Positions 20,771 through 54,754 of a DNA stretch of 64,000 nucleotides are shown piece by piece. The notes under the pieces are model-generated. The model searched no databases. It was not told where the DNA came from and saw only the letters and a list, made by a program, of their open reading frames with translations. The DNA lies in the NCBI GenBank assembly GCA_017510405.1, contig JAFWNG010000040.1, positions 124,001-188,000 of the forward strand, in the 5' to 3' direction. Made by a program: the position numbers and the translations under genes. This stretch comes from Solobacterium sp. (GTDB taxonomy: Bacteria; Bacillota_I; Bacilli_A; Erysipelotrichales; Erysipelotrichaceae). Position 1 is the stretch's first letter. Each line of letters starts with the position of its first letter.

Positions 20771-20781
20771 AAAGGAGCGCC

Positions 20782-21066: not shown

Positions 21067-21075
21067 CCGCAGCAG

Positions 21076-21100
21076 GTCCGGTCGCAATGACCGGGCTTTT
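21076..21100 (+). terminator. Terminator of the kinase/RyR operon
   Basis: GTCCGGTC pairs with GACCGGGC (one G-U pair) across GCAAT, then TTTT, 9 bases past the RyR stop codon. Confidence 0.8.
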
Positions 21101-21178
21101 CTTCTGCGGAAAATGCAAAAGTGAGGGGATACCTGACAATGTCAGAGTATTATGGAAGAAAGAAAGAGGTGATCGGAA

Positions 21179-23487: not shown

Positions 23488-23491
23488 TATG

Positions 23492-23528
23492 TACAGAAAG
23501 ACCGCTGCGGCATTAACCGCTGCGGTCT
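23492..23528 (-). terminator. Terminator between convergent murP and TIR-NACHT genes
   Basis: AGACCGCTGCGG (23499-23510) pairs, apart from one T-T position, with CCGCTGCGGTCT (23517-23528). The minus-strand tail is TTTCTGT, so it mainly serves the TIR-NACHT gene that stops at 23531. Confidence 0.75.
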
Positions 23529-23530
23529 GT

Positions 23531-27307: not shown

Positions 27308-27317
27308 CAGATCTTCT

Positions 27318-31952: not shown

Positions 31953-32049
31953 AACAGTACCTCAGAATATACAGGTCTTATTTTAGCATGACCAGCCGTA
32001 TAGGACACGAACGGGTGAAATAATGTTATGATACTTTCGGAGGTTCTGT
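31953..32049. promoter_or_regulatory. Divergent promoter region of the TIR locus
   Basis: 97 bases separate the two divergent TIR-locus genes. Plus strand: extended -10 TG-T-TATGAT at 32024-32032, then CGGAGG directly at the expected start site, giving a very short leader before ATG 32050. Minus strand: TG-C-TAAAAT at about 31988-31980 before ATG 31952. No clear -35 elements are visible, so an activator or weak basal expression is possible. Confidence 0.5.
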
Positions 32050-38062: not shown

Positions 38063-38441
38063 GGGATCAACATGCCGTCTTACATACACGGGGAGGAGAA
38101 ATATGTGCTTTTGCCGAACCGGGTGTGTGAAGAATACGATTTTTACCGCCCGTAATCCGCTTTATGAAATAATGTACTATGATAACCGTAACAGTTTTCA
38201 GACCGCGTGGATCAGCGCCGAGAACTGAGGTACCCTCCGATCCGTAAGAACCACGAAATTAATGGCGGATAATCAGGAGGCAACAGTGAGAACTGTAAAA
38301 TATATGATATAATTTTACAGTTAACAGTATTTAATATTCAAGATGAGACAGCGGCAGGGGAACTCTGTTCATGGCAGAGAAGCCGCTGGACGATCGATTT
38401 TGAGTTTCCGGGATAGATCCAGGATCCCGGGGAGGGGAAGA
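38063..38441 (+). promoter_or_regulatory. Intergenic region with palindromic operator over TATAAT
   Basis: No protein gene of normal size. AACTGTAAAAT (38291-38301) and ATTTTACAGTT (38312-38322) are perfect inverse complements spaced by 10 bases; TATAAT (38308-38313) lies inside. No -35 is visible at 17 bases. AGGAGG at 38275-38280 followed by GTG 38286 could translate an eight-codon peptide (MRTVKYMI) across the palindrome. The structure suggests regulated expression of the vWA/tubulin-like operon that starts at 38442. Confidence 0.55.
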
Positions 38442-41051
38442 ATGAAAAAGATCAAAATCTTTATACTATGCAGCCTTCTGTTCCTTTCACAATTGGCTTT
38501 TATGACATCTGTTCAGGCAAAGGGTTCCGATGAGAATGACAAATCACGGATCATCTACGTGGTCTATGACGATTCCCAGAGTATGGCAGACGATCACGGC
38601 AATCCGGACGATCCCGGAGAAATGCTGCTGCGGTGGTCGCAGGCAAAATACGCGATGGAAGTCTTCACAGCCATGATGGATGAAAAAGACATCATGCGTA
38701 TTTACCCCATGTCTGACTATGGCGATAAATACATTGAGCTGAAAGGTTCTGACAGCAAGCGCGTCGAAACGGTGCATAACTGGACGACAAATTACAATAC
38801 CACGCCTTTTTCAACGGTAGAGAAAGCGGCGGAAGCGCTCGGCGGAGCGTCCGGAAACGCGGACAAGTGGCTTCTGGTGCTTACCGACGGTGTCCTCAGG
38901 GACGGCGACGGCAGCGGCCGCGCAAATCCGGTCGACGTACAGGGCGGACTTCAGAGCTTTATTGACAGATACAAGATCAAAGTCGGGTATCTGGCGATCG
39001 GCAATGAAGGAACCGAAATAATGCCGGCGAACGGTCTGTATCCGGCCAAGGCAGCCGATGATGCGGACAGTATTCTGGAGAATGTCACAAAACTGGCAAA
39101 TACGATCTTTGTTCACATGGACCTGCCGGCGAGTCATATTCGTGAAAACGGCGCCATGAAAGAACTGAGCATCGATATTCCGACCGACCATATCATCGTG
39201 TTTGCCCAGGGATCCGACGCGGATATCAAAACAGTCACAATGAACGGCGAGGCAGTCGACTTCAAGAAAACAGTTGTAAAATTCAGCGACGTCAAGCCGA
39301 AAAACTATAATAACGCAAAGGCAGACGAGTCTCTGCGCGGAATCATTGCCGAGATCGTTCCGTCGAAGAACAGCGATTCGATCCCGAAGGGACACTTCAA
39401 CTTCGAAGTGACAGGATCGAACATCAAGAACATTCAGTATAATATCTCACCGGCTGTTCAGGTCACGTTCTTCATCGATGGAAAACCGGCTACGGACGCA
39501 AATCTGAAAGCCGGCGAGCATACGGTAACACTCGGTTTCATTGATCCAGTCAATAACAGTACGGTCGTATCGGATCTGCTGGATTCGGCCGACATCGATA
39601 TGAGCGTTATGGTAAACGGCGAAACGGTTGCCAGTTTCAGCGGAAAAGCCGGAGAAAGCAGCGAGAAGACGTTTGTCCTGGAAGAAGGCGATATCGAGAT
39701 CGAAGTCGTTGCCGAGATGCCGGGAAACATCCACCTGGAAGAACACAGAGAATACCGCGTTGTTCCGAAGCCAATCGACCTGAAAGTGGAGATCGTTGAG
39801 AAACCGGAAGTCTATGCGCCGGACCGTATCAATGAAAACTCGGATCCGGTCGTCATCCGTGTATCCAATCCGGATGGAACAGAACTCAGCGACAGTCAGA
39901 TCAAAGCAATCGAGAAAGATCTCGAAAAGAATATCCAGGTGACCAGCACTCAGCAGGGAGATATTACATTCCTCAAGAAAAAAACAGATCAGCGGGGAGT
40001 GTATGATCTGATCCCGGTTCCCGTCAGTGATTCGTTCGAAAAACTGGCGAAGGGTTCTTCAACAAACTGGACCGTTACGGTCGGATATGTCGATGATCTG
40101 CAGACAGCAGAAGGCTATACGAACTTTACTCTGACAATTAAAGAGTATATTGCCTCCAGACTGGAGATCAGAGGAAGTCAGAACGGTGAGATCCGGCTGA
40201 AGACTCTGAGCGGAAACGTCGATGTGGAAGTGTACTATGAAGATCTGTCCACCGGCGAGATGAAGCCGCTTACCGATGAGATGTGGGAAAAACTCAGACT
40301 GAAGCATCAGACGATCAAGTCAGACGGAAATCCCGGAAGACTGGACTGGTCGATCAGTAAAGGCAGCAGCCCCGGCACCTATACGATGAAGCCGAAACAC
40401 TTCGTATCGATTATTCCGTGTTTCTGGCTGCTCGACTGGCTGCTGGCAAGCGGTGATGTTACTCTGCGGCTGAACGGTTCTGTTGCGAGCGGGGAATACC
40501 TGTATTCGGGCACCGGCGAGATACCTGTGAGTATCGTTCCTCTGTCCTGGCTCGATATTCTGATCGCCCTGCTGATCATGCTTGCCATAGCGTTTATTGT
40601 CTGCGGTTATCTCTTTAAGAAGAAGATCCCGTACGGCATAACACATCCGGCAAGCAAGCTCTATCCGGTATGTATTGATAATACGAGAACGGATACAGAA
40701 GGAAACTGGGCGACGTCTCCGAAAAAGACGATTTCCAAGGGCTTCCTGAGTGTTGTGATCCCGTGGGTGCCGCAGAGAGCTACAGTATACAGCAGCGACC
40801 CTCATTATCACTGCAGATCAGGCAATCTTGAGATCGAAGCCATGAGCGGCAAATCGTTCCGGATCCTGAGCAATCATAATCTTGCCCGTACACGGTTCAA
40901 CGGCCAGCAGTACAGAAACATGGCGGACGTGAAGGCAGTAAGATTCCGGTATGGAAACTTCAAAATGGCAACCCGGGATGAGGATGACCTGACGATCGGA
41001 GTCTTCCAGTTCACCAAGCCTGCATGGCAGCGCCGGCGGAGAAGAAGATGA
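38442..41051 (+). CDS. Secreted/membrane-anchored vWA-domain protein
   Basis: The N-terminus MKKIKIFILCSLLFLSQLAF is a signal peptide cleaved near VQAKG. Residues about 33-230 are a vWA domain with MIDAS DDSQS and later LTDGV. Several beta-rich Ig-like segments follow. A membrane helix (LDILIALLIMLAIAFIVCGYL, about 706-726) and a basic cytoplasmic tail of about 135 residues close the 869-residue protein, so it is a type I membrane protein with the vWA outside. GGAGGGG precedes ATG 38442; the longer frame from 38343 has no site. It heads a six-gene operon with the tubulin-like gene 79 bases on. Likely an adhesion or sensing subunit at the cell surface. Confidence 0.85.
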   Translation: MKKIKIFILCSLLFLSQLAFMTSVQAKGSDENDKSRIIYVVYDDSQSMADDHGNPDDPGEMLLRWSQAKYAMEVFTAMMDEKDIMRIYPMSDYGDKYIELKGSDSKRVETVHNWTTNYNTTPFSTVEKAAEALGGASGNADKWLLVLTDGVLRDGDGSGRANPVDVQGGLQSFIDRYKIKVGYLAIGNEGTEIMPANGLYPAKAADDADSILENVTKLANTIFVHMDLPASHIRENGAMKELSIDIPTDHIIVFAQGSDADIKTVTMNGEAVDFKKTVVKFSDVKPKNYNNAKADESLRGIIAEIVPSKNSDSIPKGHFNFEVTGSNIKNIQYNISPAVQVTFFIDGKPATDANLKAGEHTVTLGFIDPVNNSTVVSDLLDSADIDMSVMVNGETVASFSGKAGESSEKTFVLEEGDIEIEVVAEMPGNIHLEEHREYRVVPKPIDLKVEIVEKPEVYAPDRINENSDPVVIRVSNPDGTELSDSQIKAIEKDLEKNIQVTSTQQGDITFLKKKTDQRGVYDLIPVPVSDSFEKLAKGSSTNWTVTVGYVDDLQTAEGYTNFTLTIKEYIASRLEIRGSQNGEIRLKTLSGNVDVEVYYEDLSTGEMKPLTDEMWEKLRLKHQTIKSDGNPGRLDWSISKGSSPGTYTMKPKHFVSIIPCFWLLDWLLASGDVTLRLNGSVASGEYLYSGTGEIPVSIVPLSWLDILIALLIMLAIAFIVCGYLFKKKIPYGITHPASKLYPVCIDNTRTDTEGNWATSPKKTISKGFLSVVIPWVPQRATVYSSDPHYHCRSGNLEIEAMSGKSFRILSNHNLARTRFNGQQYRNMADVKAVRFRYGNFKMATRDEDDLTIGVFQFTKPAWQRRRRRR

Positions 41052-41130
41052 AAACGATCACTTACATACACACGGAAACAATGACAGGCAGTCATTCACA
41101 GAATAAACAAAAGAGAGGAGATAATCTGTT

Positions 41131-44100
41131 ATGAATGCACCAACATTAATCGTCGGACTTGGCGGATCCGGTTCAACAATCGTTCAGAAAGTATATCAGC
41201 GTGCTACAGCCAAACAAAGAGAAAACATCGGTTTTGTGATCTTTGACACGGATGTTAACGAATTACGCGGCATCGAAGAGAAAATGCCGAAGATCCGTAC
41301 GATTCAGATCTCCACAAGACTGACTGTCGGTGAGTATCTGGATATCGACGAATACGCCCGTGACAGCTGGTTCCCGGTCAATCCGATCCTGAACGCAAAA
41401 GCGCTGACAGAAGGCGCCGGTCAGGTCCGTTCTGTTTCGCGTCTTGCTTTAAATACGGCCATCCAGCAGGGACGCATGTCGCCGCTGAATGAGTCGATCG
41501 AGGAATTATACAAGCTGACCGGTGAAAAAACACAGCAGGCTCCGCGTGTCATCGTTACAGGTTCTCTCTGCGGCGGCACCGGCTCCGGTCTGATCCTTCC
41601 GGTATGCTTATATATCCGCAACTACATGACGACCAAACTGCAGCACGGAACGACGATCATCCGCGGCTTCTTCCTTCTGCCGGAAGTCTTTGACGGCGTC
41701 ATCCGCACACAGAGTGAAAGAAACAACCTGAAGAGCAACGCCTATGCGGCAGTCCGTGAGATCAATGCATTCATGCTGAAGGACGCCGACGCTCTGCCGG
41801 CAAGCTATGACCTTCACTTCATGGCACCGCGCGCCGGTTCCACGAAACTGGATGAATACACCGGAAACCCGATGGACTTCTGCTTCCTGTTTGACGCGCA
41901 GAACCTGAACGGCATGACTCTGAACAGCTTCGAAGAGTATAAAGACCATGCAGCAAACTGCATTTACGGTATGGCGATCGCTCCGACAAGTATCCGTTCG
42001 AATTCTTCGGAAGACAATGTCATCCGTGAGATCATCGCTTCCAAAGGCCGCACCAGATTTGCCGGTTCCGGAACCAGCCTTCTGATCTATCCGACTGATG
42101 ATGTCAAGCACTACATTGGTCTGAAATGGACAAAGGAAAGCATTTCGAATGAATGGCTGAAAATGGACGAAGAGTTCAACCAGAAGTACAGAGAATACCA
42201 GAAAGCCAAGGAAAACGGCGTCCAGATGGAACCGATCGACCGCGGCACGGAGTATATCAATGCGGTCAATGAAGGCATGGAGGAAAGTGCTTTCTTAAGA
42301 GCTGTCCGCTCTGCCAACATTGAATACGACAAGAACGGTTATATCGAGAAAAAGCCGTACTGGAAACTGTACAGCGAAGCCGTCACAGCGTATATCAAAG
42401 ACAAGATCAGAGATCAGAAGAAGAACATCAAGTCGATCTCGGAGAACGTCTCTGCAAGCATCTCCAACACGATGGAGAAAAAAGCAGGCGTATCTGAGTA
42501 TCTTGCTCTGTATGAAGTTCTTGTGAGCTATCTTGAAACAACGCGTACACTGACGAAGAACCTGGCGCAGTCGATCTCCTTTACTCTGTATAAAGACAAC
42601 AGTGACTGGACAAAGACAACGATGAAATACCGTATGGAATACTGGCTCAGAGAAGATCAGAGCAAAGAAAAATTCCATCACCCGAACGCTGTCCGCTACT
42701 TCATCTACAACGCGATCAAAGAGTTCGATGATGCCTACAGAAAAGTCAGTCAGAATCTGAAGGAAAGCAACATCTACTTCGAAGACTTTGAAAGCCAGGT
42801 ATTCGATACCGATGATAATCCGGAAACAAAAGAGACACCGGAAGACTACTTCAACCAGGATATGTGGAAAGTCACCGGTCTCAAGAAACTTCTGAATTAC
42901 AACAAGCTGAAAGGCGAGAAGGAAGAACTTGACGCTGCTTTCTCCACATACCGCCAGACAGTAGATGAATACTGGGAACTCGCTGTCAAGGAGATCATCT
43001 ACAAAGAGGCTCTGGGCTACATGAACAACATTGCCCGTCAGCTGGAGGAATTCTATGACGTTCTGGGCAAGACTGTAGGCAGTATCGATAAGAGCATCGA
43101 ACAGCTCGAAGCGAAGTACCAGACATCCAAGAAGGGCGATGCGCTGCGCTATGTCTGCGCAAATGAAAAGTGCCTGAAGGGACTGGCCGGTGAAGTGCGC
43201 AATCCGAACGTCAACAGCCTCACTCTTCCGACCGACATCTGCCGTGAGATCTTCCTCAGAGCAAAGAACGCTGCGCTGTCCGATCAGAAGATCGATCTGG
43301 ATGATTACTACAGAAGAGTCTTCAATGAAACGATCGTGAAGTATCTGGAAGACCTGGTCGAAACGCACAACAGCTCCATCGTCAACATGGACATCATCTC
43401 CGCTCTGCAGAAAGAAGCGCAGATCGAACGTGACGGTGCGATCGAAGGCGATGATCTTGAGATCTATATCGCAAAGATCATTGAGGAGAGCGGAAGACTG
43501 GCAGTGCCGTTCATTGAGTCTCCGGCGGGACAGGAGCCGCGTATCATTGATACCTGCGCCTATAATCCGTCTCTGAGTGAAGCGGACATTCCGGGCAGAA
43601 CACAGTTCGTTAACAAGAATCTGAAGTCCAAGGGCGGCGTCGACGATGACAGCATCGATTCGAACATGATCCTGTTCTATCAGGCAGTATACGGACTCCG
43701 TCCGACAGATCTGAGCAAGTTCGCTCCGCAGAAAAACGCCGAGACAATGGAACGTCCGTCCGGTGAGTACTACAAAGCATACTTTGAGCAGATCGAACAG
43801 ATCGATCCGGTCACAACAAAATCGAAGGTCATTACCCCGCATATCGACCGCTGGTGGCATGTCATCACGAAACTTCCGGATATCAGCGATGAGAACCAGG
43901 AAGCTCAGGAAGCCAAGATCTACCGCGCATTCTTCTGGGGTATCGTCGGCGATTACATCCGTCTGGAAAAGATCAACAAGTTCCGTTCTGAATACAAGGT
44001 AAACAATGTCAACTTCAACAAGGAAAAAGACTTTGAGAACCTGATCGTATCGAACGGCACAGCATGCGACCATCTGTACGAAGTTCTGGATGCATTTACG

Positions 44101-44613
44101 ATCTTCCCGTACTTATGCACGGAAATTCTGGAAGACATCAAGCTGATCATTACAAAAGATCGTGATAATAAGCGCCCGTTTGCGGTAAGCAAGCTTAAGA
44201 GAATGATCGACCGGTTTGAAGTCAAGGAAGAAATCCTGAATCAGAATGCCAAAGAGAACACGGTCCGTTCCGTTCTGGAACTGCCGATCCTCATGAAGCT
44301 TTCTGTTCCGGCAGAACAGTATGACGAAAAGAGAATGATGCATCTGACCAGAGTCATTCTGGAAGAACTCCGCGCATATACGGCACGCTTCACAGATGAA
44401 TCAACGTTTGCAAGTACTTACGGAACACTGTTAAAAGACCAGTTTAACAAGTTCCAGCAGCATGTAGAGGATTTCGCAAAACAGGATCCGGAGATGCTGA
44501 CAGACAAACTGTTCGTTTACATCTGCCAGAATGCTTCCAAAGAATTTGAAAGCATTGATCTCTTCGATGAAAGCGATGCAATTCTCGACTACATCAGCAA
44601 AGTAAGCAATTAG
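41131..44613 (+). CDS. Tubulin-like (Tubulin_2) GTPase
   Basis: Residues 5-17 (TLIVGLGGSGSTI) and the tubulin/FtsZ signature GGTGSG at 148-153 (SLCGGTGSGLILPV) identify a Tubulin_2-type GTP-binding domain in the N-terminal 300 residues. The remaining 860 residues are helical, with long coiled-coil-like segments and no membrane helix. It is far larger than FtsZ (about 380 aa). GAGAGGAGATA precedes ATG 41131. Proteins of this family occur beside vWA and other conflict-type genes; whether they polymerise is not established. I infer a GTP-switched cytoplasmic scaffold for the membrane partners encoded around it. Confidence 0.88.
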   Translation: MNAPTLIVGLGGSGSTIVQKVYQRATAKQRENIGFVIFDTDVNELRGIEEKMPKIRTIQISTRLTVGEYLDIDEYARDSWFPVNPILNAKALTEGAGQVRSVSRLALNTAIQQGRMSPLNESIEELYKLTGEKTQQAPRVIVTGSLCGGTGSGLILPVCLYIRNYMTTKLQHGTTIIRGFFLLPEVFDGVIRTQSERNNLKSNAYAAVREINAFMLKDADALPASYDLHFMAPRAGSTKLDEYTGNPMDFCFLFDAQNLNGMTLNSFEEYKDHAANCIYGMAIAPTSIRSNSSEDNVIREIIASKGRTRFAGSGTSLLIYPTDDVKHYIGLKWTKESISNEWLKMDEEFNQKYREYQKAKENGVQMEPIDRGTEYINAVNEGMEESAFLRAVRSANIEYDKNGYIEKKPYWKLYSEAVTAYIKDKIRDQKKNIKSISENVSASISNTMEKKAGVSEYLALYEVLVSYLETTRTLTKNLAQSISFTLYKDNSDWTKTTMKYRMEYWLREDQSKEKFHHPNAVRYFIYNAIKEFDDAYRKVSQNLKESNIYFEDFESQVFDTDDNPETKETPEDYFNQDMWKVTGLKKLLNYNKLKGEKEELDAAFSTYRQTVDEYWELAVKEIIYKEALGYMNNIARQLEEFYDVLGKTVGSIDKSIEQLEAKYQTSKKGDALRYVCANEKCLKGLAGEVRNPNVNSLTLPTDICREIFLRAKNAALSDQKIDLDDYYRRVFNETIVKYLEDLVETHNSSIVNMDIISALQKEAQIERDGAIEGDDLEIYIAKIIEESGRLAVPFIESPAGQEPRIIDTCAYNPSLSEADIPGRTQFVNKNLKSKGGVDDDSIDSNMILFYQAVYGLRPTDLSKFAPQKNAETMERPSGEYYKAYFEQIEQIDPVTTKSKVITPHIDRWWHVITKLPDISDENQEAQEAKIYRAFFWGIVGDYIRLEKINKFRSEYKVNNVNFNKEKDFENLIVSNGTACDHLYEVLDAFTIFPYLCTEILEDIKLIITKDRDNKRPFAVSKLKRMIDRFEVKEEILNQNAKENTVRSVLELPILMKLSVPAEQYDEKRMMHLTRVILEELRAYTARFTDESTFASTYGTLLKDQFNKFQQHVEDFAKQDPEMLTDKLFVYICQNASKEFESIDLFDESDAILDYISKVSN

Positions 44614-44628
44614 TAAAGGCAGGATATT

Positions 44629-46653
44629 ATGTACACAGTCCTCATTCTGGCACAAAAGACATTGAATGATTTCAACGAGTTTTCTCCGTTGATGTCTTCC
44701 TTTGTGCAAAATGGAAATATCGGCGTATGCCGATGGGAGCCAAACGGAACAACTCTGGAAACGTCTGTTCCGGACCTTTATCGTCTCGTCAACGAGAAAA
44801 AGGAATGGAGAGCTGTGATCGTATGTACAGACCCGGCCGAATTCAAAGGTCATTCAGCCAGCAAGTTCAACCCGTTTGATTTTGATGAAAATTCAGATCG
44901 TACATGGGTCGATATGAAAGACGGAGAGATCCTGGACAGCAGGATCCCTCTTGTCCGGCTGACGCATCTGCTGGGAGGCATCCCTGCTCCGAATCCCGGC
45001 TATGAGGAATACTACGTCGATGAGAACAATGTCCGGGTCGCCAAAGTCAGTGAATATCTTCAGGCGCAGGAGGAGATCACCGAAGAAAGTGAATTGAAGA
45101 AGATGAATTCAAAACTTCTCCGGCTGGTGTATGTTCCGAAAGACTGCGAGACAGAGAAAAAAGCCCAGAAACAGTGGATGAAAGACCACTACCTTCCGGT
45201 AGTTTCTCCGACGGAGATCATTCTGGCTTTTGCCCGTGATCAGGACGATGCTTTCGATGCGTTTGATTCTGTGAAAATGTCCTGGAAACAGCACATGGAG
45301 ATCGACAGTTCCAAGTTCTGGGAGAGAAATACCTACCCGCAGAACTGCCGGTTTCTCGTTTTTGATTTTTCCAACCGCGGGATCATGTGCCATAAGGAAG
45401 AATTGTTCAAGTTCTGGTGCGGCGTCCTTCTGCTGAGTGTCAACAGAGTGGATCCGGATCTGATCCAGGCACACAGACTGTACAAGATCGATGTAATACT
45501 GAACGAAAAAGAACTGAAAGACAGTTTCGAAACAACGGCTGCGAAGATCAATACGCGCAAGTATCAGCTGGAACAGCAGGTGGAAAGAGACCGCAAAGTA
45601 CGCATCAATTCCAATGATGATATACCGGATTATGCGCAGACGATCAGCGTGAACTTCAAACAGTCTGCTCCGAAGTCGGAAAAAGAAGCAGAGTACGGTC
45701 TATACCGGGATGACAATTCCAATGATCTGTACGAATGGAAACGCTATCGTGATTCTGCCATCGGCAGCGTTTCGACGATGATCCGAAGAACAGAGCGCGT
45801 ACTGGACAAGGCCGCAACGGAATACAGAGAGATCTGTACATACAAAGAAAGCGACGTAGAGCCTCTGAATGAGTTCCAGGCGGAAGAAATGGAACTGTCA
45901 CTGAGTGAGGTATATCACCGGATCCTTCAGGATCAGAAAGAACTGCCGTCAACGGAACAGCTGGTAAAGACGGAAATAGAAAAAGCGGACAAAGAAGTCA
46001 TGACATGTCTTCGCCGCAGAGTCACCCGCAGAGAAGTGTACAGTATTCTTATTTTACTGACTCTGACACTTGTTCTTTTCTCCGTGAGCGGATTCTTTAC
46101 ACCGGGTGTGAACCGGATCTTCCTCGGCGTATATCTGGGTATGGCTGTCATACTGGTTTACGCGATCGTTTATATCTGCCTGATCCTGCAGCATAAGGAA
46201 CTGGGAAAGACGCTTACCGACTTCAGAAGCGGAATGATGACGATCATTTCGATCATTTCTCAGAATGCCGGTAAGTATTCGGCTTTCATCAGTGATATCT
46301 GTACACATGTGCACGGCAGAAGCTATCTGGATATTATGGATGATCAGAAGCGTTCCTATACAAATGAAGAGTCTATGAAACTGCGTCAGATCAAAGAGAT
46401 CGATCTGTTCAAAGACACGCTTTCTCTGTGGAATACCGCACTTCATCTCAACGCGAATATCGAACGCGGTGAAGTCAGCGTTTCTCCGTTCAGGGAAGAC
46501 GTGCCGGAGGGCAGAAAGATCACGGAACTTGACGCCGGCAAAAACTACAGAATACCGGTAGGAAGAAGCGGCTTTGAGATCATTTCTCCGTACGGTTTTG
46601 TTAAGAGACTTGAAATAGACAGGGAGGAGAATTACGATGACATACTTAATTGA
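44629..46653 (+). CDS. Unrecognised protein with C-terminal membrane hairpin
   Basis: 674 residues of no family I can name. The N-terminus (MYTVLILAQKTLNDFNEFSP, then WRAVIVCTDPAEF) looks like an alpha/beta receiver-like or flavodoxin-like fold. The middle is charged and helical. Two membrane helices follow at about 471-491 (SILILLTLTLVLFSVSGFF) and 500-522 (GVYLGMAVILVYAIVYICLI). The C-terminal 150 residues are cytoplasmic. It starts 15 bases after the tubulin-like gene and its end overlaps the next gene by 17 bases, so it is a tightly coupled operon member. Probably the membrane adaptor of the tubulin-like protein. Confidence 0.75.
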   Translation: MYTVLILAQKTLNDFNEFSPLMSSFVQNGNIGVCRWEPNGTTLETSVPDLYRLVNEKKEWRAVIVCTDPAEFKGHSASKFNPFDFDENSDRTWVDMKDGEILDSRIPLVRLTHLLGGIPAPNPGYEEYYVDENNVRVAKVSEYLQAQEEITEESELKKMNSKLLRLVYVPKDCETEKKAQKQWMKDHYLPVVSPTEIILAFARDQDDAFDAFDSVKMSWKQHMEIDSSKFWERNTYPQNCRFLVFDFSNRGIMCHKEELFKFWCGVLLLSVNRVDPDLIQAHRLYKIDVILNEKELKDSFETTAAKINTRKYQLEQQVERDRKVRINSNDDIPDYAQTISVNFKQSAPKSEKEAEYGLYRDDNSNDLYEWKRYRDSAIGSVSTMIRRTERVLDKAATEYREICTYKESDVEPLNEFQAEEMELSLSEVYHRILQDQKELPSTEQLVKTEIEKADKEVMTCLRRRVTRREVYSILILLTLTLVLFSVSGFFTPGVNRIFLGVYLGMAVILVYAIVYICLILQHKELGKTLTDFRSGMMTIISIISQNAGKYSAFISDICTHVHGRSYLDIMDDQKRSYTNEESMKLRQIKEIDLFKDTLSLWNTALHLNANIERGEVSVSPFREDVPEGRKITELDAGKNYRIPVGRSGFEIISPYGFVKRLEIDREENYDDILN

Positions 46654-49600
46654 ACTGATCCCTTATATTTCAATGCTGTTCGTTCTGTGCGTTCTGTACT
46701 TTGTAATGAGCATCCTCTCCATCCGAAAAGAGAAACGGTACCTGTCGTATCCGCTGGTCCTGCTTTCTCCGATCATTCTGACAGTCCTCTCGGTGCTGTG
46801 TTACCGGCTCATGCGGGTCATCGACTTTGCCGGTACATTTCTGAGCAGCATCATGAACGGTTCGTTCATGATCGTGGGATGGAACGCGCTGCTGTTTATC
46901 GTATATATGATCATTCGGAGCATCATCAACGGCATCCTGTCAGCCCGGGGAGAAGTACCGGATATGCTGGCGGAAAACTGCCGGAATTACTACACTCTGG
47001 ATGAAGAATATCACCTGTACTTCTTTAATGAAGACCATATCAATTTCCGCCGGATCATCAATGCTCTGACGGTATTCACGATCGTATTTACGGCCGGCCT
47101 GCTTACGTATATCGCAATGCATCCGGGCGGCCAGGACTACGCGTACCGGATCTTCCCGATCGCAGCGATGCTGGTGATCGCGGAAGTTGAACTGTTCCTG
47201 AGCGGCTATATCAAACAGGAATACTGTGATCACATCGGCGGAAAAGCTATTACTTCCAGTGTCTACAGCAATTATTCACGCCTGCGTCAGGTCTATGAAA
47301 AACTGCTTCCGGAAGACCTTCTGAAGGCGCATACCGGAAATGAGTTCCAGGCGAAAGACGGGGCTTCGGACTTTATCAATTCACTGGAAAAGTCGGATGA
47401 TGAGGCGGACCGGATCGCCGCCGCCTACTTTGACTCTCTGGAAGCCAGAAACGGATTGTTCGATGTAGATCTCATTGAACTCACTCTGAATCTGCTTCAC
47501 GGGAAAAGCGCAGTCGTCATGAATCCCTTCTACCGGGATCTGAGCGACTATATCCTGCTTCCGGTCGTCGATCAGCTGGTCAATCACCGGAACTGCCTGA
47601 TCATTGTCGGAAGAAATTCGATTGCGGATGATGCAATGGAATGGATCCGCGGCGTTCTGAAGGGATACTGCCGTACGGAGAGACTCTGGCGTGTCGGAAT
47701 GCTGGAAAACAGAAAGCCGGACTGCGAAGTCGGAATGCTTTCTTTCTCCCAGCTCTATGATTTTGATGTGGTCCGCGAGAACCGTGAGTTCCTGGAAAAT
47801 ACAGGATTTGTATTACTTCTGGAACCTTCCAGAATGCTTACGACTTCCCAGACCGGTCTGGCGAATCTGGCAGATATCATTAATTCCAAAAGAACACCGG
47901 TATACTGCATCAGCGATCATGACGCGGACGGCCTGGCAGATACGCTTTCTCACGTGCTGAAGGTGAACATCACGGATGTTTCTTCCGCACCGCGTCCGCA
48001 CAGCATCTATACGATCCTCGGATGGGATGCCTCAGGCGACTACCAGAGACAGAGAATGTTCGGCAAAGAGGTGCATTATCTCGGAAACGGTATTGAGATC
48101 GCTTCGGTGGCGCTGAAAAACCAGGTGCCGCATGTCAGCTGGTATTCCGAATCCAAAGCTCCGATCAAAGATATCCGCTGGATCGCGGGACAGTATTATC
48201 CGCAGATCTGCCGGTATGCCGGCATTGTCCAGCAGCAGAAATCGATCGATGACTACATTACATTCTCTTCCGATCTGTGGGGATCAGAAGTTGTACCGAA
48301 TGAATTTGTCATCGTTGAGGATGAATTCTGCAATCTGTTCTCAAGCGCCCGTGCATATCTTTCGAGAGGTTTTAACCAGACGTTTGTAAATGTAATCACT
48401 GAAAACTATCTTCTCAGGGATTATATGCGCTACAACTGCGAGATGTTCATCAGCGATCACAAAGCGATCCCTGCGATCTCTTCCGCATATGTGAAGAGCG
48501 AGCGGAATACCGTGCACCGGCTGATCCTGAAGATGGCTGCTGCACCGGTTCCGGAAAGCGAGATCATCCATGAGCTGTCGCTGATCAATATCAAAACAGA
48601 CGATATCTACGATACGCTGACGAAACTGATCACAAAGTACAGCGTTGATGTGCAGAATGACGCGATCATCACCGTTGAGCAGAAGAGCGGTCTCAGCCGT
48701 GATCTGGAACCGATCATCAAAAACTTCTATTCCATTTCAAACAAGACGTTTATCAGGCACTTCCGCAGGACCCTGAGAAATGCCTATTTCGTTGTGGAAG
48801 ATGAAGTGGAAGGCAGAGAGAATATCGATGCCAGACTGTATGAACACGTAACGCAGATCGTCATGCCCGGTCAGCTGATCATCCATGACGGAAAGCTGTA
48901 CCGTGTTCAGAGCGTAAATCCGGATGAATGCATTCTGCACAGAGCTTCGGATCATTATGCGGGAAGAAGATATTACAAGCAGAACCGTACATACACATTC
49001 TCCGCCAATGCGGAAACAGAGCATGTACGCCGCGTAATGGATATTGAGATCAGCAGAGAACGCAGGGATTTCAAGGTGACCTCATCCGGTTACTTTGATA
49101 TGGAAGAATACGGCAACCTGCGCTCTGCCAGATATGTGGATCTTTCCGATGATCCGAGCATGAAGGAATATGACCGCAGATACCGCAACAAAAATGTCCT
49201 TCGCATTAAAATGTCCGGAACGACCGAAAAGGAGCGTTATACGACGTCGGTATTACTGACGGAATTATTCCGTTCCCTGTTCCCGGAGGCGATCGACTAT
49301 ATTGCAGTCCTGTCGCGTGTCCCGGAGACAGTCACCGGTATTCTGCGCGACTTCAGCTATACGCTCGAAGGCGCATACGATGATGAATCGATCTATATCG
49401 TGGAAGACAGCGATATGGATATCGGTCTGATCGAAGCAGTCGACCAGAATATCATGCGTATCTTTGAAATTCTTGCGGATTATATTGACTGGCATGAAGA
49501 ACAGTTCCGGAAACAGAAAGAGGAACCTAAGCCTCTTCCCGCTGTTCAGCTGCCGGAAGATAAGAAGATACCGGGCGTGGAAGGCTTCTTCCGCCGGCTC

Positions 49601-50680
49601 ATAGAAGCCATAAAGCGGCTGTTCCGCAAGAAGGAAAAGGAACCGCAGCAGCCAGCCGGTGTAACGCCGGCAGCCCCTGCCGGCAATACAGGCGGTATTG
49701 TCGTGACGGACCAGGTTGAAGAAGATGTTGAGATCCCGATCGAATATGTACCGGAGAGAGATGTACAGGAGCCGGCAGAACCTGTGTTTACACAGAATGA
49801 CGGCGCACCGGATGATATCGAAATTCTTCTTCCGGCCGATGAAACGGATTATCAGAGAAGATGTTATCTCAAGTTCGGCTTTGAAGAGATCGACGCCAAC
49901 TTTGATCTCTTCAATCTCCGTGTTTACCTCAATAAGCACGGCTGGACGAACAATGCGATCACCAAATCACGCCACCGTGAACCGATTCCGGAACATCTGC
50001 TGGATATCGGAGCAGTGGAGACCTGTGATTTCTGCGGCAAACCTCTGAGCGGCGTAAACTATGAGAAACTGGCTGACGGCAGAGTCCGCTGCAACGAATG
50101 TTCCCGTACAGCGATCGACAATGTAGAGGATTTCCAGGAACTTGCGATGCGTACAAAAGCAATGATGGAAAGCATCTACAACATCAGCTATACGAAGGCG
50201 ATCACCATTCAGATCGCAGACGCCAAAGTCGTTGCGAAACAGAGCGGAATGCTGTTCAAGCCGACTCCCGGTTATGACGGAAGAGTACTCGGATTTGCGA
50301 GAAAAAAGAACGGTCAGTTCTCGATCCTTATGGAAAACGGAGCGCCGAGGCTTGCCTCGATCGAAACGTTTGCCCATGAGATGACGCACATCTGGCAGTA
50401 TGAGAACTGGGAGGAAAAAGACGGCAGACAGAAGATCGTAAAACTGTACGGCAGTGAGATGAACCGAAAGATCGTCTACGAAGGAATGGCTACGTGGTCA
50501 GCCTGTCAGATGCTGTACGCTATGGGAGAAACTGCATACGCGGAACAGAACGAAGCGGAAATGGCCATGCGTCAGGATGAGTACGGCGTGGGATTCCGTC
50601 TGTTCCGGGAAAAGTACGGCTTTGTGAAGAACGGAGATATTCCGCCGAATACGCCGTTCAATCACTTCCCGCCGCTTTAA
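46637..50680 (+). CDS. Polytopic protein: degenerate helicase-like core, zinc ribbon and HEMTH zincin
   Basis: Five membrane helices lie in the first 195 residues. Residues about 300-800 resemble a decayed superfamily-2 helicase: LVLLLEPSRM at a Walker B-like place, and PGQLIIHDGKLYRVQSV then ASDHYAGRRYY (about 746-780), a pattern known from Lhr/YprA-type helicases with DUF1998. No proper Walker A is seen. A Pro/Glu linker follows. The C-terminus has a zinc knuckle CDFC...CNEC (C1130, C1133, C1152, C1155) and a zincin motif FAHEMTHIWQY (H1247, E1248, H1251), an arrangement like LIM-DA1 peptidases. It starts inside the previous gene. I infer a membrane-anchored protease; the helicase resemblance is tentative. 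Confidence 0.75.
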   Translation: MTYLIELIPYISMLFVLCVLYFVMSILSIRKEKRYLSYPLVLLSPIILTVLSVLCYRLMRVIDFAGTFLSSIMNGSFMIVGWNALLFIVYMIIRSIINGILSARGEVPDMLAENCRNYYTLDEEYHLYFFNEDHINFRRIINALTVFTIVFTAGLLTYIAMHPGGQDYAYRIFPIAAMLVIAEVELFLSGYIKQEYCDHIGGKAITSSVYSNYSRLRQVYEKLLPEDLLKAHTGNEFQAKDGASDFINSLEKSDDEADRIAAAYFDSLEARNGLFDVDLIELTLNLLHGKSAVVMNPFYRDLSDYILLPVVDQLVNHRNCLIIVGRNSIADDAMEWIRGVLKGYCRTERLWRVGMLENRKPDCEVGMLSFSQLYDFDVVRENREFLENTGFVLLLEPSRMLTTSQTGLANLADIINSKRTPVYCISDHDADGLADTLSHVLKVNITDVSSAPRPHSIYTILGWDASGDYQRQRMFGKEVHYLGNGIEIASVALKNQVPHVSWYSESKAPIKDIRWIAGQYYPQICRYAGIVQQQKSIDDYITFSSDLWGSEVVPNEFVIVEDEFCNLFSSARAYLSRGFNQTFVNVITENYLLRDYMRYNCEMFISDHKAIPAISSAYVKSERNTVHRLILKMAAAPVPESEIIHELSLINIKTDDIYDTLTKLITKYSVDVQNDAIITVEQKSGLSRDLEPIIKNFYSISNKTFIRHFRRTLRNAYFVVEDEVEGRENIDARLYEHVTQIVMPGQLIIHDGKLYRVQSVNPDECILHRASDHYAGRRYYKQNRTYTFSANAETEHVRRVMDIEISRERRDFKVTSSGYFDMEEYGNLRSARYVDLSDDPSMKEYDRRYRNKNVLRIKMSGTTEKERYTTSVLLTELFRSLFPEAIDYIAVLSRVPETVTGILRDFSYTLEGAYDDESIYIVEDSDMDIGLIEAVDQNIMRIFEILADYIDWHEEQFRKQKEEPKPLPAVQLPEDKKIPGVEGFFRRLIEAIKRLFRKKEKEPQQPAGVTPAAPAGNTGGIVVTDQVEEDVEIPIEYVPERDVQEPAEPVFTQNDGAPDDIEILLPADETDYQRRCYLKFGFEEIDANFDLFNLRVYLNKHGWTNNAITKSRHREPIPEHLLDIGAVETCDFCGKPLSGVNYEKLADGRVRCNECSRTAIDNVEDFQELAMRTKAMMESIYNISYTKAITIQIADAKVVAKQSGMLFKPTPGYDGRVLGFARKKNGQFSILMENGAPRLASIETFAHEMTHIWQYENWEEKDGRQKIVKLYGSEMNRKIVYEGMATWSACQMLYAMGETAYAEQNEAEMAMRQDEYGVGFRLFREKYGFVKNGDIPPNTPFNHFPPL

Positions 50681-50695
50681 TGAAAGGAGAATACA

Positions 50696-51361
50696 ATGTC
50701 AGAAATCATCAATATGTACCGCAGAATCGCGGCACAGCTGTCAGAGATCGGAAACTCCTATATTAAAAGCGCGGAAGACACGATCCGTCTCATGGAACTG
50801 AGCGGTGAAGATCAGGACAGAGCAGAGTTTTTTACCAGTCAGCTGAAGGAACTGAAAGACTGTCTTGATCAGATCCGTTATTATCGACAGATCGCAGAAA
50901 AACATATTACCTCTACGAATACACTGCCGATCGTTCCGAGAGAAGTGGATCTGACAAAACTGAAGACCTGGTGCAGCCGGATCAACATCTACAGTGATGA
51001 TGATCCGTACGCTGCCAGGCTGTATGTACTGTGCTGTTCCAATGAACTGTATCTGGAGAAAAAGATCTCACAGGTCAATGACATTCTTACTGCTCTGGGA
51101 TGTGGAACGGAAGATTCGGAAGAGAAACTGCTGGAGAATCACGAAAAAGATATCACCGAGCAGTGCCGAGCATTATTTGAAAGCCCTGAATTTGAACGGT
51201 TCATGACCATGCTGTATCCGGAAAACGCTGTTCTGAAGCCGGAAGAAAGCAATACTGTTCAGACGGAACTTCCCGAAACTCAGGAAGACGGAACGGAAGA
51301 AGGGAAGGCTGAGCCGGCCGAACCGGCTGAACCGGAAGAGATGCAGTCAGAAGACGCATAA
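50696..51361 (+). CDS. Small helical protein of the tubulin-like operon
   Basis: 221 residues with no known family. The first 75 residues form amphipathic, coiled-coil-like helices (FTSQLKELKDCLDQIRYYRQ). The last 40 residues are acidic and repeat Glu/Pro/Ala (AEPAEPAEPEE). GAAAGGAG precedes ATG 50696, 15 bases after the zincin gene. No signal or membrane segment. Probably an adaptor within the complex. Confidence 0.7.
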   Translation: MSEIINMYRRIAAQLSEIGNSYIKSAEDTIRLMELSGEDQDRAEFFTSQLKELKDCLDQIRYYRQIAEKHITSTNTLPIVPREVDLTKLKTWCSRINIYSDDDPYAARLYVLCCSNELYLEKKISQVNDILTALGCGTEDSEEKLLENHEKDITEQCRALFESPEFERFMTMLYPENAVLKPEESNTVQTELPETQEDGTEEGKAEPAEPAEPEEMQSEDA

Positions 51362-51373
51362 AGGAATAAGACA

Positions 51374-52675
51374 ATGCTGTTAAACAAGATATTGGCAGTA
51401 CTTCTGGCAGTCGTATTCCTGACATTCAGCGGATTAGCACTTGCCGGTCCTGAGCCTGAGAAACCAAGTGGAAATACCGAAAAGAAAGAAGAGAAGACGA
51501 TCTCTTTAAAAAAGGGCACAAAGTTTCTGGAAGAAGAGAAAGAACAGGAAGAGCAGGAAGGTCAGTCCTCGGAAGAAACGGAACAGACCGAACAGACAGA
51601 ACAGACGGAGCAGACAGAAGAAAACGAAGAGACGTCGACCGAAAATACACTGCTGTATATTAACGGTACCGACCATCCCTACTACTATCCGCTTCTGAGT
51701 GATGAAGAAAAACTGTTCTATGAGGGATACGAAAGAATCGCTCAGAATGCGCAGACGGCCGGGTATTCCACCAGCGTCTTTACAGCCCTGGATCCGTCCG
51801 CAGATGAATGCTGGAAGGCCAGAGACAAAGCATACGAAGCGATGTACATGGATCACCCGGAATACTTCGGATTCTTCCGGAAAGCCGGTACAAAATGTAT
51901 TTACTACAAGTCCCCGAACTCGGAGGGAAGGTATCAGGTCACCTTTACGGTAGAAACACCGTATAGTGACTATGAGCAGGAAATGACGGCGTTCAATGCG
52001 GCTGTAGAGACGTTCCTCGCAGATATTGATCGGACGCAGCGTCCTGAGCAGATCGCTCTGGCGGTACATGACAAGCTTATGGATACCGTGGCATATGATT
52101 ATTCCGCCCTCGAAGATCCGGAGAAAAAGGACAGCTACGTATACACTGCGTACGGAGTCCTGGTCAAAAATCTGAAAGGCCAGGATAACATGGCAGTCTG
52201 CGAGGGATACTCCCACGCGTATGTATATCTCTGTCAGCTGTGCGGACTGGATGTCACCATGGTGCACGGGGATGCGGGCGGTTCGCTCGACAGTCTCGGT
52301 GCGCACGCATGGAATCTTGTGAAGCTGGACGGAGACTGGTATGAACTGGATGTGACCTGGGATGACAATGTCGGCACGAACGCCAGAACAACACAGGGAG
52401 AAGGTAATTTCCGGGAAATGACGAATGCCATGAATGCCGATACAGATTTCTATAATCGGACTTCTCATGTCTACTTCCTTCTGACGACCGAAGCCATATC
52501 TCACCGTGCTCCTGCTGAAAATGCGTGTAAATTCGATTACAACGGCGGCTGGTATACGGTGTGCGCGGACGAAGATTATCATATCCGTGCAGGAACGGAT
52601 ACGCAGTCGACAGCGGATCTGACACCGACTGCTTACGGAGCGTTCCATTCGTATGAATCGATCATGGCGGAGTAG
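51374..52675 (+). CDS. Secreted/anchored transglutaminase-like protease-fold protein
   Basis: A hydrophobic N-terminus (LLNKILAVLLAVVFLTFSGL) acts as signal or anchor. A low-complexity Glu/Gln/Thr stretch (EQTEQTEQTEQTEE, about 72-85) is a spacer. The C-terminal domain has the papain-like triad of transglutaminase-like proteins: VCEGYSHAY (C276), GAHAWNLVK (H311) and YELDVTWDD (D326). Such secreted domains crosslink or cleave peptides at the surface. It ends the six-gene operon, 12 bases after the previous gene, and is followed by a bidirectional terminator. It could act on the vWA surface subunit of the same operon; this is inference. Confidence 0.88.
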   Translation: MLLNKILAVLLAVVFLTFSGLALAGPEPEKPSGNTEKKEEKTISLKKGTKFLEEEKEQEEQEGQSSEETEQTEQTEQTEQTEENEETSTENTLLYINGTDHPYYYPLLSDEEKLFYEGYERIAQNAQTAGYSTSVFTALDPSADECWKARDKAYEAMYMDHPEYFGFFRKAGTKCIYYKSPNSEGRYQVTFTVETPYSDYEQEMTAFNAAVETFLADIDRTQRPEQIALAVHDKLMDTVAYDYSALEDPEKKDSYVYTAYGVLVKNLKGQDNMAVCEGYSHAYVYLCQLCGLDVTMVHGDAGGSLDSLGAHAWNLVKLDGDWYELDVTWDDNVGTNARTTQGEGNFREMTNAMNADTDFYNRTSHVYFLLTTEAISHRAPAENACKFDYNGGWYTVCADEDYHIRAGTDTQSTADLTPTAYGAFHSYESIMAE

Positions 52676-52809: not shown

Positions 52810-53724
52810 TCAGCGTCTTTCCCCAACAGCGATGACGAATGCGTTTCCGGACCATTCGGATCCGACCGCAAACGATGTGACGTTCCAGTTTTCCGGAAAG
52901 ACCGGTTTATTGATTTCGTGATCCGGCAGATTCCGGTTCATTACCGGCAGGACTCTGCCGTCTGCTGTTTTTGTCATCACGGTATAGCAGAACACTCCGT
53001 CCAGGGAATCCGCCGGAGCCGTAAACAGTACTGTTCCGCTGCAGTCGGTGATCGTTCCGTCTTTTTTCAGAATGATGACTTCCTCGCATTCTGAACCGGT
53101 CGGACAGAGATCGAGGACATCGGTGAATTTGGACAGAACGTCCTGCATATTGCCGTGCGGGCCTTGCGTGCAGTTCCTGCCGGCGCACAGGATCCTGCCG
53201 TCGTTCGTGATCCCGAATACAGCGCTCTGAAGACCTGTGACGATCCTGCGGACATCTTTCCAGCCGGATACCGCAGCGTATTCATCCATGTCTCCCATAC
53301 GCTGGGAATAATGCATATGATGTACGCGTCCGGAGGAATCCAGCGCAAAGAACGCGTCGGAAACATCCACCTGCACGATATCCTTCCAGGATTTTACTTC
53401 GTTATTGATATCTTCAAATGTGTGCCGGAATCGGTATCCGCTTTTCAGGGTATTGCGGACCGGCTGTTTTGAGATCATGCACGTTCCGTCACTGACCAGA
53501 CCGACGGCAGAGCCGGGATAACATTTACTGATGGCGATCTGCCGGATCCTGGTCCAGTACTGACAGCGTGCGGCATATTCATCCGATCTGCACTTCTGCA
53601 GCACCCGGCCGTCGTCGGTAACTGCCATAATGCAGTCCGTGCCGGCATAGACACTGCGTATGGATTCCTTTTCCCAGTCTTTCAGGGAAAACGGGATATT
53701 GTTCGTATACAGTAATCTGCCCAT
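52810..53724 (-). CDS. RCC1-like beta-propeller protein
   Basis: 304 residues made of repeated units that end in a fixed pattern: IMAVTDDGRVL, AVGLVSDGTCMI, FFALDSSGRVHH, VFGITNDGRILCAG, VIILKKDGTITD and VMTKTADGRVLPV, each after a Trp/Val stretch such as WKDVRRI. This alternation is that of RCC1/BLIP-II-type propellers, here about six blades. No signal peptide, so probably cytoplasmic, where it would be a protein-protein interaction module. The partner is unknown. It is convergent with the transglutaminase-like operon and in the same direction as the zinc-ribbon gene. Confidence 0.75.
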   Translation of the reverse strand: MGRLLYTNNIPFSLKDWEKESIRSVYAGTDCIMAVTDDGRVLQKCRSDEYAARCQYWTRIRQIAISKCYPGSAVGLVSDGTCMISKQPVRNTLKSGYRFRHTFEDINNEVKSWKDIVQVDVSDAFFALDSSGRVHHMHYSQRMGDMDEYAAVSGWKDVRRIVTGLQSAVFGITNDGRILCAGRNCTQGPHGNMQDVLSKFTDVLDLCPTGSECEEVIILKKDGTITDCSGTVLFTAPADSLDGVFCYTVMTKTADGRVLPVMNRNLPDHEINKPVFPENWNVTSFAVGSEWSGNAFVIAVGERR

Positions 53725-53764
53725 ATTATTCTTGTATCCTCTGTTCTGTGTAAGATATCAATCA

Positions 53765-53797
53765 AAAATACGCAGGATGCTCAGACGGCATCCTGCG
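53765..53797 (-). terminator. Terminator of the zinc-ribbon/SH3 gene
   Basis: CGCAGGATGC pairs with GCATCCTGCG across TCAGACG; the minus-strand tail is TATTTTTGATT. Confidence 0.8.
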
Positions 53798-53802
53798 CAG
53801 GA

Positions 53803-54648
53803 TCATTCAGCGAACTTCGTGATCTCAAGCCACTCGCCCTGATCGGCGATCCACTGGTCTCTGCCGATGCGGTACCAGGTATATCCTTCGCCTTCTTCGG
53901 CAGCGTAATAGGTGTAAGTGGCGCCTTCACGGGCGTCTCCCACAAGGTCAGCGGCCGTTGCCGGCTGTGTGCGGATATGCAGCTTTGTGACTTTGACGCG
54001 TACGGTACCGATCGCGTTTCCGAGAGCAGAAGGATCCGAGGTCATTTCCGGACGCGCTGTCTCTTCGTTCATCGCCGGTATATTTTCGGATGAAGACGGT
54101 GTCTTATCAAACTTCGGGAACTCCAGTCCGGTGATATCCGTGATCTTCTGCAGACCTTTGTCGAGGAGGTCCGGGCGGTTCTGGGAAAGCCACCATGTGC
54201 CGCCGGCACATAATGCGATCAGAAGAATCAGGATCCACGGCCACTTTCTGTGCTTGTAGCGGACGATCTCTTCGTCCTCATCCTCTTCTTCTTCCACTTC
54301 TTCCTCTTCGATCAGACGAATCGGTTTCTTCTTTTTCTTTGAGGCTTTTTTCGGCTTCTGCTCTGCCGGTGCTGCACTGACCGGTACAGGCTTCGGCTCC
54401 GGCTCCGGTTCCGGTTCCGGAACGGCAGATACGATGACCGGTTCCGTCACTTCCATATTGTTCAGCTCATTGACGATCGAAGTCATCGTTCCCGGTGTTC
54501 CGTCTGCCGGTTCATCCAGGATGCTCTTTGACGGCTTCGGGAGTTCAAGATCATCTATATTGGGCTCCGGAAGTTCAAAACCGCAGTTGGTGCAGTAACG
54601 GACGCCGTATCCCAGTGGTTTACCACAGTTCGTACAGTATTTGCTCAT
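53803..54648 (-). CDS. Zinc-ribbon membrane protein with extracellular SH3-like domain
   Basis: The N-terminus has a double-knuckle zinc ribbon (KYCTNCGKPLG, RYCTNCGFEL). A long Pro/Glu and Lys-rich cytoplasmic linker (PEPEPEPEPKPVPV, KKASKKKKK, EEEVEEEEDEDEE) leads to one membrane helix (WPWILILLIALCAGGTWWL). The extracellular C-terminus is a bacterial SH3 domain (VKVTKLHIRTQPATAADLVG, then WYRIGRDQWI) of the kind that binds cell wall. ATG 54648 follows GGGAGG by eight bases; an in-frame TTG at 54654 is less likely. Possibly a wall-sensing adaptor. Confidence 0.85.
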   Translation of the reverse strand: MSKYCTNCGKPLGYGVRYCTNCGFELPEPNIDDLELPKPSKSILDEPADGTPGTMTSIVNELNNMEVTEPVIVSAVPEPEPEPEPKPVPVSAAPAEQKPKKASKKKKKPIRLIEEEEVEEEEDEDEEIVRYKHRKWPWILILLIALCAGGTWWLSQNRPDLLDKGLQKITDITGLEFPKFDKTPSSSENIPAMNEETARPEMTSDPSALGNAIGTVRVKVTKLHIRTQPATAADLVGDAREGATYTYYAAEEGEGYTWYRIGRDQWIADQGEWLEITKFAE

Positions 54649-54754
54649 AGACAAGTCCTCCCTGTAACTAAAGGTTATTATACAGGAATTTGGAGTATTT
54701 GTGACGTGACAAGCAGAATGGCATTCTTACATGTATATGTTTATAATTTGTACG

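Follow-up and report, generated by a model that had tools for sequence, protein, structure and literature searches.

A six-gene FtsZl1 (Tubulin_2) operon of Solobacterium sp. with relatives that adjoin a type VII-type ATPase

Operons that join FtsZl1 (Tubulin_2) proteins to von Willebrand factor A (vWA) proteins and membrane proteins were described in 2010 by Makarova and Koonin, who called most of the other partners lineage-specific, with no recognisable domains, and reported that the T6-H7 elements of the family could not be identified (PMC2875224). We found no report in the literature of a tested FtsZl1 function since then. Tubulin-domain and vWA proteins also occur in one locus in Firmicutes in the GTPase/tubulin (GAP1-N2) and vWA-MoxR conflict systems, which have exchangeable outputs (PMC7159879). 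Type VII secretion systems have been described in variants T7SSa to T7SSj, and T7SSc has a cytosolic vWA component, TscE (PMC11217815); the words tubulin and FtsZ are absent from the main text of that paper. Here we describe a six-gene operon with a Tubulin_2 protein in Solobacterium sp., and we compare it with these systems. The operon lies within a 64,000-nt stretch of contig JAFWNG010000040.1, which we call the window. Our claims come mainly from gene anatomy derived from the sequence and from gene order; the results are gene order, homology, motifs and one predicted fold (that of gene 4), and from these we infer function.

The six open reading frames (ORFs) were confirmed at 38442-52675 on the forward strand, with spacings of 79, 15, -17, 15 and 12 bases. 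Coordinates and spacing match a preliminary description of this DNA, which had proposed a six-gene operon from the sequence. A congener, Solobacterium sp. RGIG7085 from sheep rumen (genome G004, locus L091), carries the complete set of six in unchanged order, with ~34-58% identity, which excludes a chance grouping. The six genes form one real operon. The genome of the window (G000) is 3.27 Mb in 46 contigs and is of the same genus as the congener; among the 60 genomes of the genus that we searched, full-length matches to the operon were present in two.

We read the operon as a reduced member of a widespread FtsZl1 lineage in which a core both senses and serves as an assembly platform across the envelope, with outputs that can be exchanged and are often a type VII-like toxin export, and we give this reading about an even chance. 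The predicted core has five parts: an external vWA protein with one transmembrane (TM) segment, a cytosolic tubulin-family protein, a cytosolic adaptor with two TM segments (gene 3), the five-TM gene 4 protein, and a cytosolic zincin with a zinc ribbon. The operon shares with the FtsZl1 operons of 2010 the family of gene 2, with its FtsZ-like domain and long C-terminal region, the vWA partner and the membrane-associated partners. It differs in that the core is now defined as gene 3, a pseudo-helicase of MrfA fold and a zincin, that relatives carry a type VII ATPase and toxins, and that the window operon is without a P-loop GTPase or kinase. The preliminary description knew of no described system of this make-up, which is only half right, as vWA/FtsZl1 operons with membrane proteins have been known since 2010. 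What is new is the tubulin-family core adjoining a type VII-type ATPase, EspC-like proteins and toxins, together with the pseudo-helicase. In the open-access literature we found no report that joins a tubulin-family protein to type VII components and none of a pseudo-helicase of the gene 4 type.

To find relatives, we scanned GTDB species genomes with the gene 4 family and obtained 62 named loci, all of them recovered via gene 4. They are mainly from Bacillota (mostly Lachnospiraceae and Oscillospiraceae, also Erysipelotrichaceae), plus Actinomycetota (Eggerthellaceae, Leucobacter), Spirochaetota (Treponema) and Myxococcota (a Myxococcales metagenome-assembled genome), and Thiocapsa is also represented. 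Six-frame profile searches detected the zincin in 59 loci, and they found the order vWA, tubulin, gene 3, gene 4 in 42 of the 44 loci whose sequence reaches 7.5 kb or more upstream of gene 4. The preliminary description had staked its proposal on a conserved six-gene order and on the genes not being separated in relatives. The four core genes do stay together in that order, but genes 5 and 6 are not part of the core. A gene 4 profile run against 395 genomes of the class found one additional family, while a first scan of genome contigs with gene 2 and a scan of viral contigs found no relatives. In a gene 4 tree and in a tree of genes 2, 3 and 4 combined, the window and its congener group with L099, L105 and L126 at 99*, and of these L099 and L105 carry the ATPase described below; both trees were of the quick kind, and the larger one is unrooted.

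Three other loci were looked at as possible relatives. The Allomeiothermus silvanus plasmid pMESIL01 (L090) was not used, as its third gene (687 aa) has no profile similarity to gene 3 or gene 4. On this plasmid the vWA, Tubulin_2 and 687-aa genes adjoin brxL, a helicase and a WYL gene, possibly a defence island. In an Azospirillum plasmid locus, a 1118-aa protein aligns with gene 4 over 392 columns (hhalign probability 58%, E 1e-4), which is suggestive only, and a 710-aa protein has no match to gene 3. A 9.8 kb faecal contig labelled 'Bacteriophage sp.' (L088, MT836542.1) has the vWA and Tubulin_2 genes of the system; it is probably a mislabelled bacterial contig.

The link to type VII secretion comes from the genes that follow the core. 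We counted output genes in the 55 loci with enough downstream sequence, and in 20 of them the gene after gene 4 or the zincin is an FtsK-type ATPase of the EccC/EssC type. Its nearest named families are EccCa (TIGR03924, E 6e-23), EssC and EccCb, and its nearest solved structure is EccC (PDB 4nh0, E 8e-14). The Walker A motif (GxxxxGKS) is intact in every copy long enough to hold it; the copy in L095 ends before the ATPase core motifs. Nineteen of the 20 ATPases start with a domain homologous to gene 5 and have no convincing TM segment. The ATPase of L133 is a full EssC-like protein with TM segments (TIGR03928, 753 bits, just below the cut-off of 778), and L134 is a further partial locus of this kind, also with TM segments. 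Small proteins like EspC or WXG100, either stand-alone or as N-terminal domains of larger proteins, are found in 13 of the 20 loci with the ATPase and in none of the 35 without it. One of the small proteins is above the PF10824 cut-off (26.4 vs 23.5 bits), and the WXG100 models match weakly (E 0.002-0.012). Several relatives have neighbouring toxin domains (PF13930, PF15644, PF03496, PF14414, PF14411), which are of the non-specific endonuclease, papain-fold deamidase, ADP-ribosyltransferase, and WHH and LHH nuclease types. The relatives thus share with type VII systems an EccC/EssC-family ATPase, small helical EspC/WXG100-like proteins and polymorphic toxins, and a vWA component is also shared with T7SSc. 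They differ from these systems in that the ATPase, except in L133 and L134, is TM-less and carries the gene-5 domain.

In the window both the ATPase and the cargo are missing. Gene 5 (50696..51361, +; 221 aa, helical) is homologous to the N-terminal ~185 residues of the relatives' EccC-like ATPase. Against the ATPase of the near relative L099, phmmer aligns these first ~185 residues at E 1.7e-25, and the match ends at the domain edge. Gene 5 is the severed N-terminal domain, a putative docking domain, of an EccC-like ATPase, of which the window operon has no other part, so the operon is a reduced form. There is no second copy of the gene-5-type ATPase in the genome. No ORF of WXG100 type lies between the six genes, and the EspC-like profiles sm1 and sm2 had no match downstream of the operon (L159); the region 5' of gene 1 was not profiled. 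Similar stand-alone stumps recur beside an intact core in L101 and L131, inside groups that have the ATPase. The presence of the ATPase requires seven changes of state on the tree, and the simplest reading is that the motor was lost several times while its putative docking domain was kept. That the window keeps the core after motor loss suggests that the core has some function by itself. Elsewhere in the same genome there is a separate, conventional-looking type VII locus (G000:C43, L158:5892-11956) with an EssC-like ATPase of ~1126 aa, two WXG100-like genes and a gene of YukD size; the WXG100 and YukD labels were given by size, position and inspection of the sequence by eye.

Gene 1 (38442..41051, +) encodes the vWA protein of 869 aa. 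It has a metal-ion-dependent adhesion site (MIDAS) motif, D43-x-S45-x-S47, and its predicted layout is a signal peptide, an external vWA domain with a beta-rich region, one TM segment (706-724) and a basic cytosolic tail. The window protein has no vWA match in a Pfam search, and a relative has a weak match to VWA_2. DxSxS is present in 41 of the 47 related rows, and most of the six that lack it are ORFs truncated at a contig end or by a frameshift. The surface vWA protein of the preliminary description is supported.

Gene 2 (41131..44613, +) encodes 1160 aa without a TM segment and matches Tubulin_2/FtsZl1 (PF13809) at E 5.6e-55, with 187.5 bits against a curated cut-off of 27. The nucleotide-binding loops T1 (GLGGSGS, aa 9-15) and T4 (GGTGSG, aa 148-153) are present, and GGTGSG is found in 43 of 50 related rows, the remainder being ORFs without an N-terminus. 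The assignment as a tubulin-like GTPase of 1160 residues agrees with the family match and the conserved loops, and GTP binding, on which the preliminary description had made its proposal depend, is predicted from these motifs. The six window proteins have no match to a GTPase family other than tubulin. Short orphan Tubulin_2 paralogues of 328-483 aa also occur in the same genome (L032:9787-11238 and L033:10617-11603, on contigs C20 and C15) and in the congener (L031:7268-8314). They keep the GTPase domain, and two also keep a C-terminal patch; the middle region is missing. The L033 and L031 loci have similar flanking gene sizes, and the flanks in L033 are a DUF5058 gene and an M20 peptidase gene.

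Gene 3 (44629..46653, +; 674 aa) has an N-terminal alpha/beta domain, long helices and two TM segments (473-491 and 501-519), with both ends predicted to be cytosolic. Its AlphaFold model (mean predicted local distance difference test, pLDDT, 86) has the same alpha/beta domain and long helices, and a fold search of this model against the PDB gave no match. PDB sequence searches with genes 3 and 4 gave no useful match. Both proteins have TM segments, as expected of the two large membrane proteins first proposed, but only gene 4 is strongly polytopic.

Gene 4 (46637..50680, +; 1347 aa) has five N-terminal TM segments, an MrfA-like body, a disordered linker, a zinc ribbon and a C-terminal zincin. 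We used an AlphaFold model of residues 196-1347 (mean pLDDT 80) for a Foldseek search, and the DUF1998 helicase MrfA (6znp) was the best match by far (E 4.3e-22). The body (aa ~225-960, 47309..49516, +) superposes on MrfA with Z 16.1-16.3 over 526-582 residues; some DEAD-box structures have a slightly higher Z, but they span only ~300 residues, which is the two RecA-like domains. At the motif I site the window protein reads P297-F-Y-R-D and at the motif II site E396-P-S. In 38 homologues the first site is mostly [N/D/T]-P-F-Y-R-D with P297 invariant, the second is E-P-S with P397 invariant, and Walker A and DExH are absent from both sites in all 38. Because the body has the MrfA fold but neither Walker A nor DExH, we regard it as a predicted membrane-anchored pseudo-helicase. 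It resembles the superfamily 2 (SF2) helicase MrfA/DUF1998 (PDB 6znp, 6zns) in predicted fold over most of its length and differs in its membrane anchor and in the replacement of both motifs by PFYRD and EPS.

The zinc ribbon of gene 4 has four cysteines (C1130-x2-C1133 ... C1152-x2-C1155; 50024..50101, +). The zincin motif is H1247-E1248-x-x-H1251 (HEMTH; 50375..50389, +), with a likely third ligand at E1282 (YEGMA). Of 53 related rows, 51 retain HE[LM]TH, and the ribbon cysteines are retained in nearly all. In L065, L144 and L124 the zincin domain has no HExxH and the zinc ribbon is kept; these are likely pseudo-proteases. Charge and hydropathy give gene 4 five TM segments in an N-out/C-in arrangement, and nine named relatives encode the zincin on its own, in a protein that lacks both a signal peptide and a TM segment. 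For these two reasons the zincin is predicted to be cytosolic, and the gene 4 body likewise. The preliminary description had placed the protease outside the cell, which does not agree with this topology.

Gene 6 (51374..52675, +; 433 aa) has a predicted signal peptide, an acidic low-complexity N-terminal region and a transglutaminase-like domain (Transglut_core, E 1e-9). The congener keeps C276, H311 and D326, and all 12 related proteins have C276. The family match, signal peptide and conserved triad are what one would expect of the secreted Cys-His-Asp enzyme proposed earlier. With its Cys-His-Asp core, gene 6 resembles the transglutaminase-like superfamily (PF01841; the NF045980 lipoprotein family), and it differs in being part of an operon and in its acidic N-terminal region. 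The genome has further transglutaminase-like homologues elsewhere, which are generic and uninformative on the operon. In raw counts across related loci, a transglutaminase-like gene comes next after the core in nine loci without the ATPase and in none with it; in L115 such a gene is further downstream. Genes for CASTOR/POLLUX-like channels follow the core in L126 (E 1e-16) and L135 (E 2e-9). Gene 6 is one among several alternative outputs, and as these differ among loci (ATPase, transglutaminase-like protein, channel), the most fitting view of the core is that of a platform whose partners can be exchanged. One tubulin/transglutaminase operon has, further downstream, a gene for a 991-aa protein that combines a TIR and an HD domain (L125:15509-18484).

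Since a single operon encodes a tubulin-family protein, a vWA protein at the surface and a transglutaminase-like protein that is secreted, it is reasonable to propose a trans-envelope assembly. This part of the preliminary description stands, with the tubulin-family protein inside and the other two predicted outside. We propose that the vWA domain may sense or grip a metal-dependent surface ligand, and that this state would be passed inward via the TM segment of the vWA protein and genes 3 and 4. GTP-dependent assembly of the gene 2 protein beneath the membrane could then cluster or position the complexes. Cutting of a cytosolic component by the zincin may be a licensing step, after which the exchangeable output module would be activated. 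The ancestral output of the window's clade would be an EccC/EssC-type ATPase, docked via the gene-5 domain, that exported EspC/WXG100-like partners and polymorphic toxins. The window lineage would have lost ATPase and cargo and kept the docking domain as gene 5. Its output is now most likely the secreted gene 6 protein, which could crosslink or deamidate a surface protein. We also consider a stronger version, to which we give somewhat less than an even chance: the core would be an undescribed class of export machine in which a soluble EccC-like motor delivers EspC-tagged polymorphic toxins, and the window operon would be a derivative that has lost the motor and been put to new use with a transglutaminase-like protein at the surface. 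The type VII link (20 loci, mostly from gut Bacillota) gives FtsZl1 a testable role in type VII-like toxin export. If true, a cytoskeletal GTPase would serve a secretion system, and a dead SF2 helicase would have been turned into a membrane scaffold.

Several points weigh against the platform reading. In most of the loci counted (35 of 55) the core stands without an ATPase, a WXG-like protein or a toxin, so export might be no more than a passenger function. Both trees are of the quick kind and the larger has no inferred root, which leaves the direction of ATPase change unproven; an ancestral ATPase, with seven state changes, should be read with caution. Gene 4 was the query for all loci, which makes the conservation of gene order conditional on its presence. 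The links of the core proteins to secretion or to one another come from the genes, and both the placing of gene 6 outside the cell and the gene 4 topology are predictions from hydropathy and charge. Protease activity may not always be needed, given the loss of HExxH in L065, L144/L070 and L124.

Two rivals survive best, and we consider both unlikely. The first is a membrane-remodelling or vesicle machine, in which submembrane tubulin filaments anchored by genes 3 and 4 shape the envelope while the vWA and transglutaminase-like proteins act on the wall or matrix. It fits the 2010 FtsZl1 proposal, with the same family and a vWA partner (PMC2875224), and the membrane proteins of the core. However, the EccC/EssC ATPase, EspC-like proteins and toxins linked to the core in relatives speak for export or conflict, and most of the genus does without the operon. 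The second, which we hold to be no more probable than the first, is an intracellular defence system whose core senses attack, assembles, and triggers a toxin, membrane channel or protein-modifying output, a scheme already put forward for vWA and GTPase/tubulin conflict systems. The patchy distribution suits it, as do the alternative outputs (CASTOR/POLLUX-like channels, the TIR/HD protein, transglutaminase-like proteins), the TIR and Card1-like genes in another part of the window and the tubulin and vWA conflict systems on record (PMC7159879). But the operon lacks the partners that define those published systems (the GAP1 P-loop GTPase, HSP70 and MoxR) and has an MrfA-like pseudo-helicase and a zincin in addition. 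Genes 1-4 and 6 had no PADLOC model match (gene 5 was outside the scan), an extracellular location is predicted for the vWA protein and for gene 6, and the EspC-like proteins and the toxins with an EspC-like N-terminus resemble export cargo.

It is very improbable that the operon is what is left of a decaying type VII-like locus and has no function today. The ATPase and cargo are gone and the EccC-like protein is reduced to its N-terminal domain, as a remnant would have it, but the six ORFs are intact at ~34-58% identity to the congener, the nucleotide-binding, MIDAS, HExxH and Cys-His-Asp residues are retained, and the same stump stands with an intact core in L101 and L131. Least probable of all is the original scheme of a cytoskeletal scaffold inside with protease and crosslinker both outside, which has the vWA and transglutaminase-like proteins on the predicted side of the membrane but is already disfavoured by the cytosolic zincin.

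Just 5' of gene 1, at 38286..38313 (+), there is a promoter-like site, GTGAGA-16-TATAAT with an extended -10 (TG before TATAAT). It was the best forward-strand match of the scan; it is a consensus match only, and such sites were overall near chance (17 found against 15.5 expected from shuffled sequence). A terminator-like stem-loop, also a consensus match only, lies 3' of the operon at 52945..52960 (+). Downstream, at 52810-54654 on the reverse strand, are genes for an RCC1-like protein and a zinc-ribbon/SH3b protein. A zinc-ribbon/SH3b gene also adjoins the operon in the congener (L029:6231-7049), which indicates a common insertion site on that side. Upstream, window positions 15891-34050 form a conflict-like neighbourhood with a PP2C phosphatase, a kinase protein that carries a Card1-like endonuclease domain, TIR proteins accompanied by a NUDIX gene, and a TIR protein with leucine-rich repeats (TIR-LRR).

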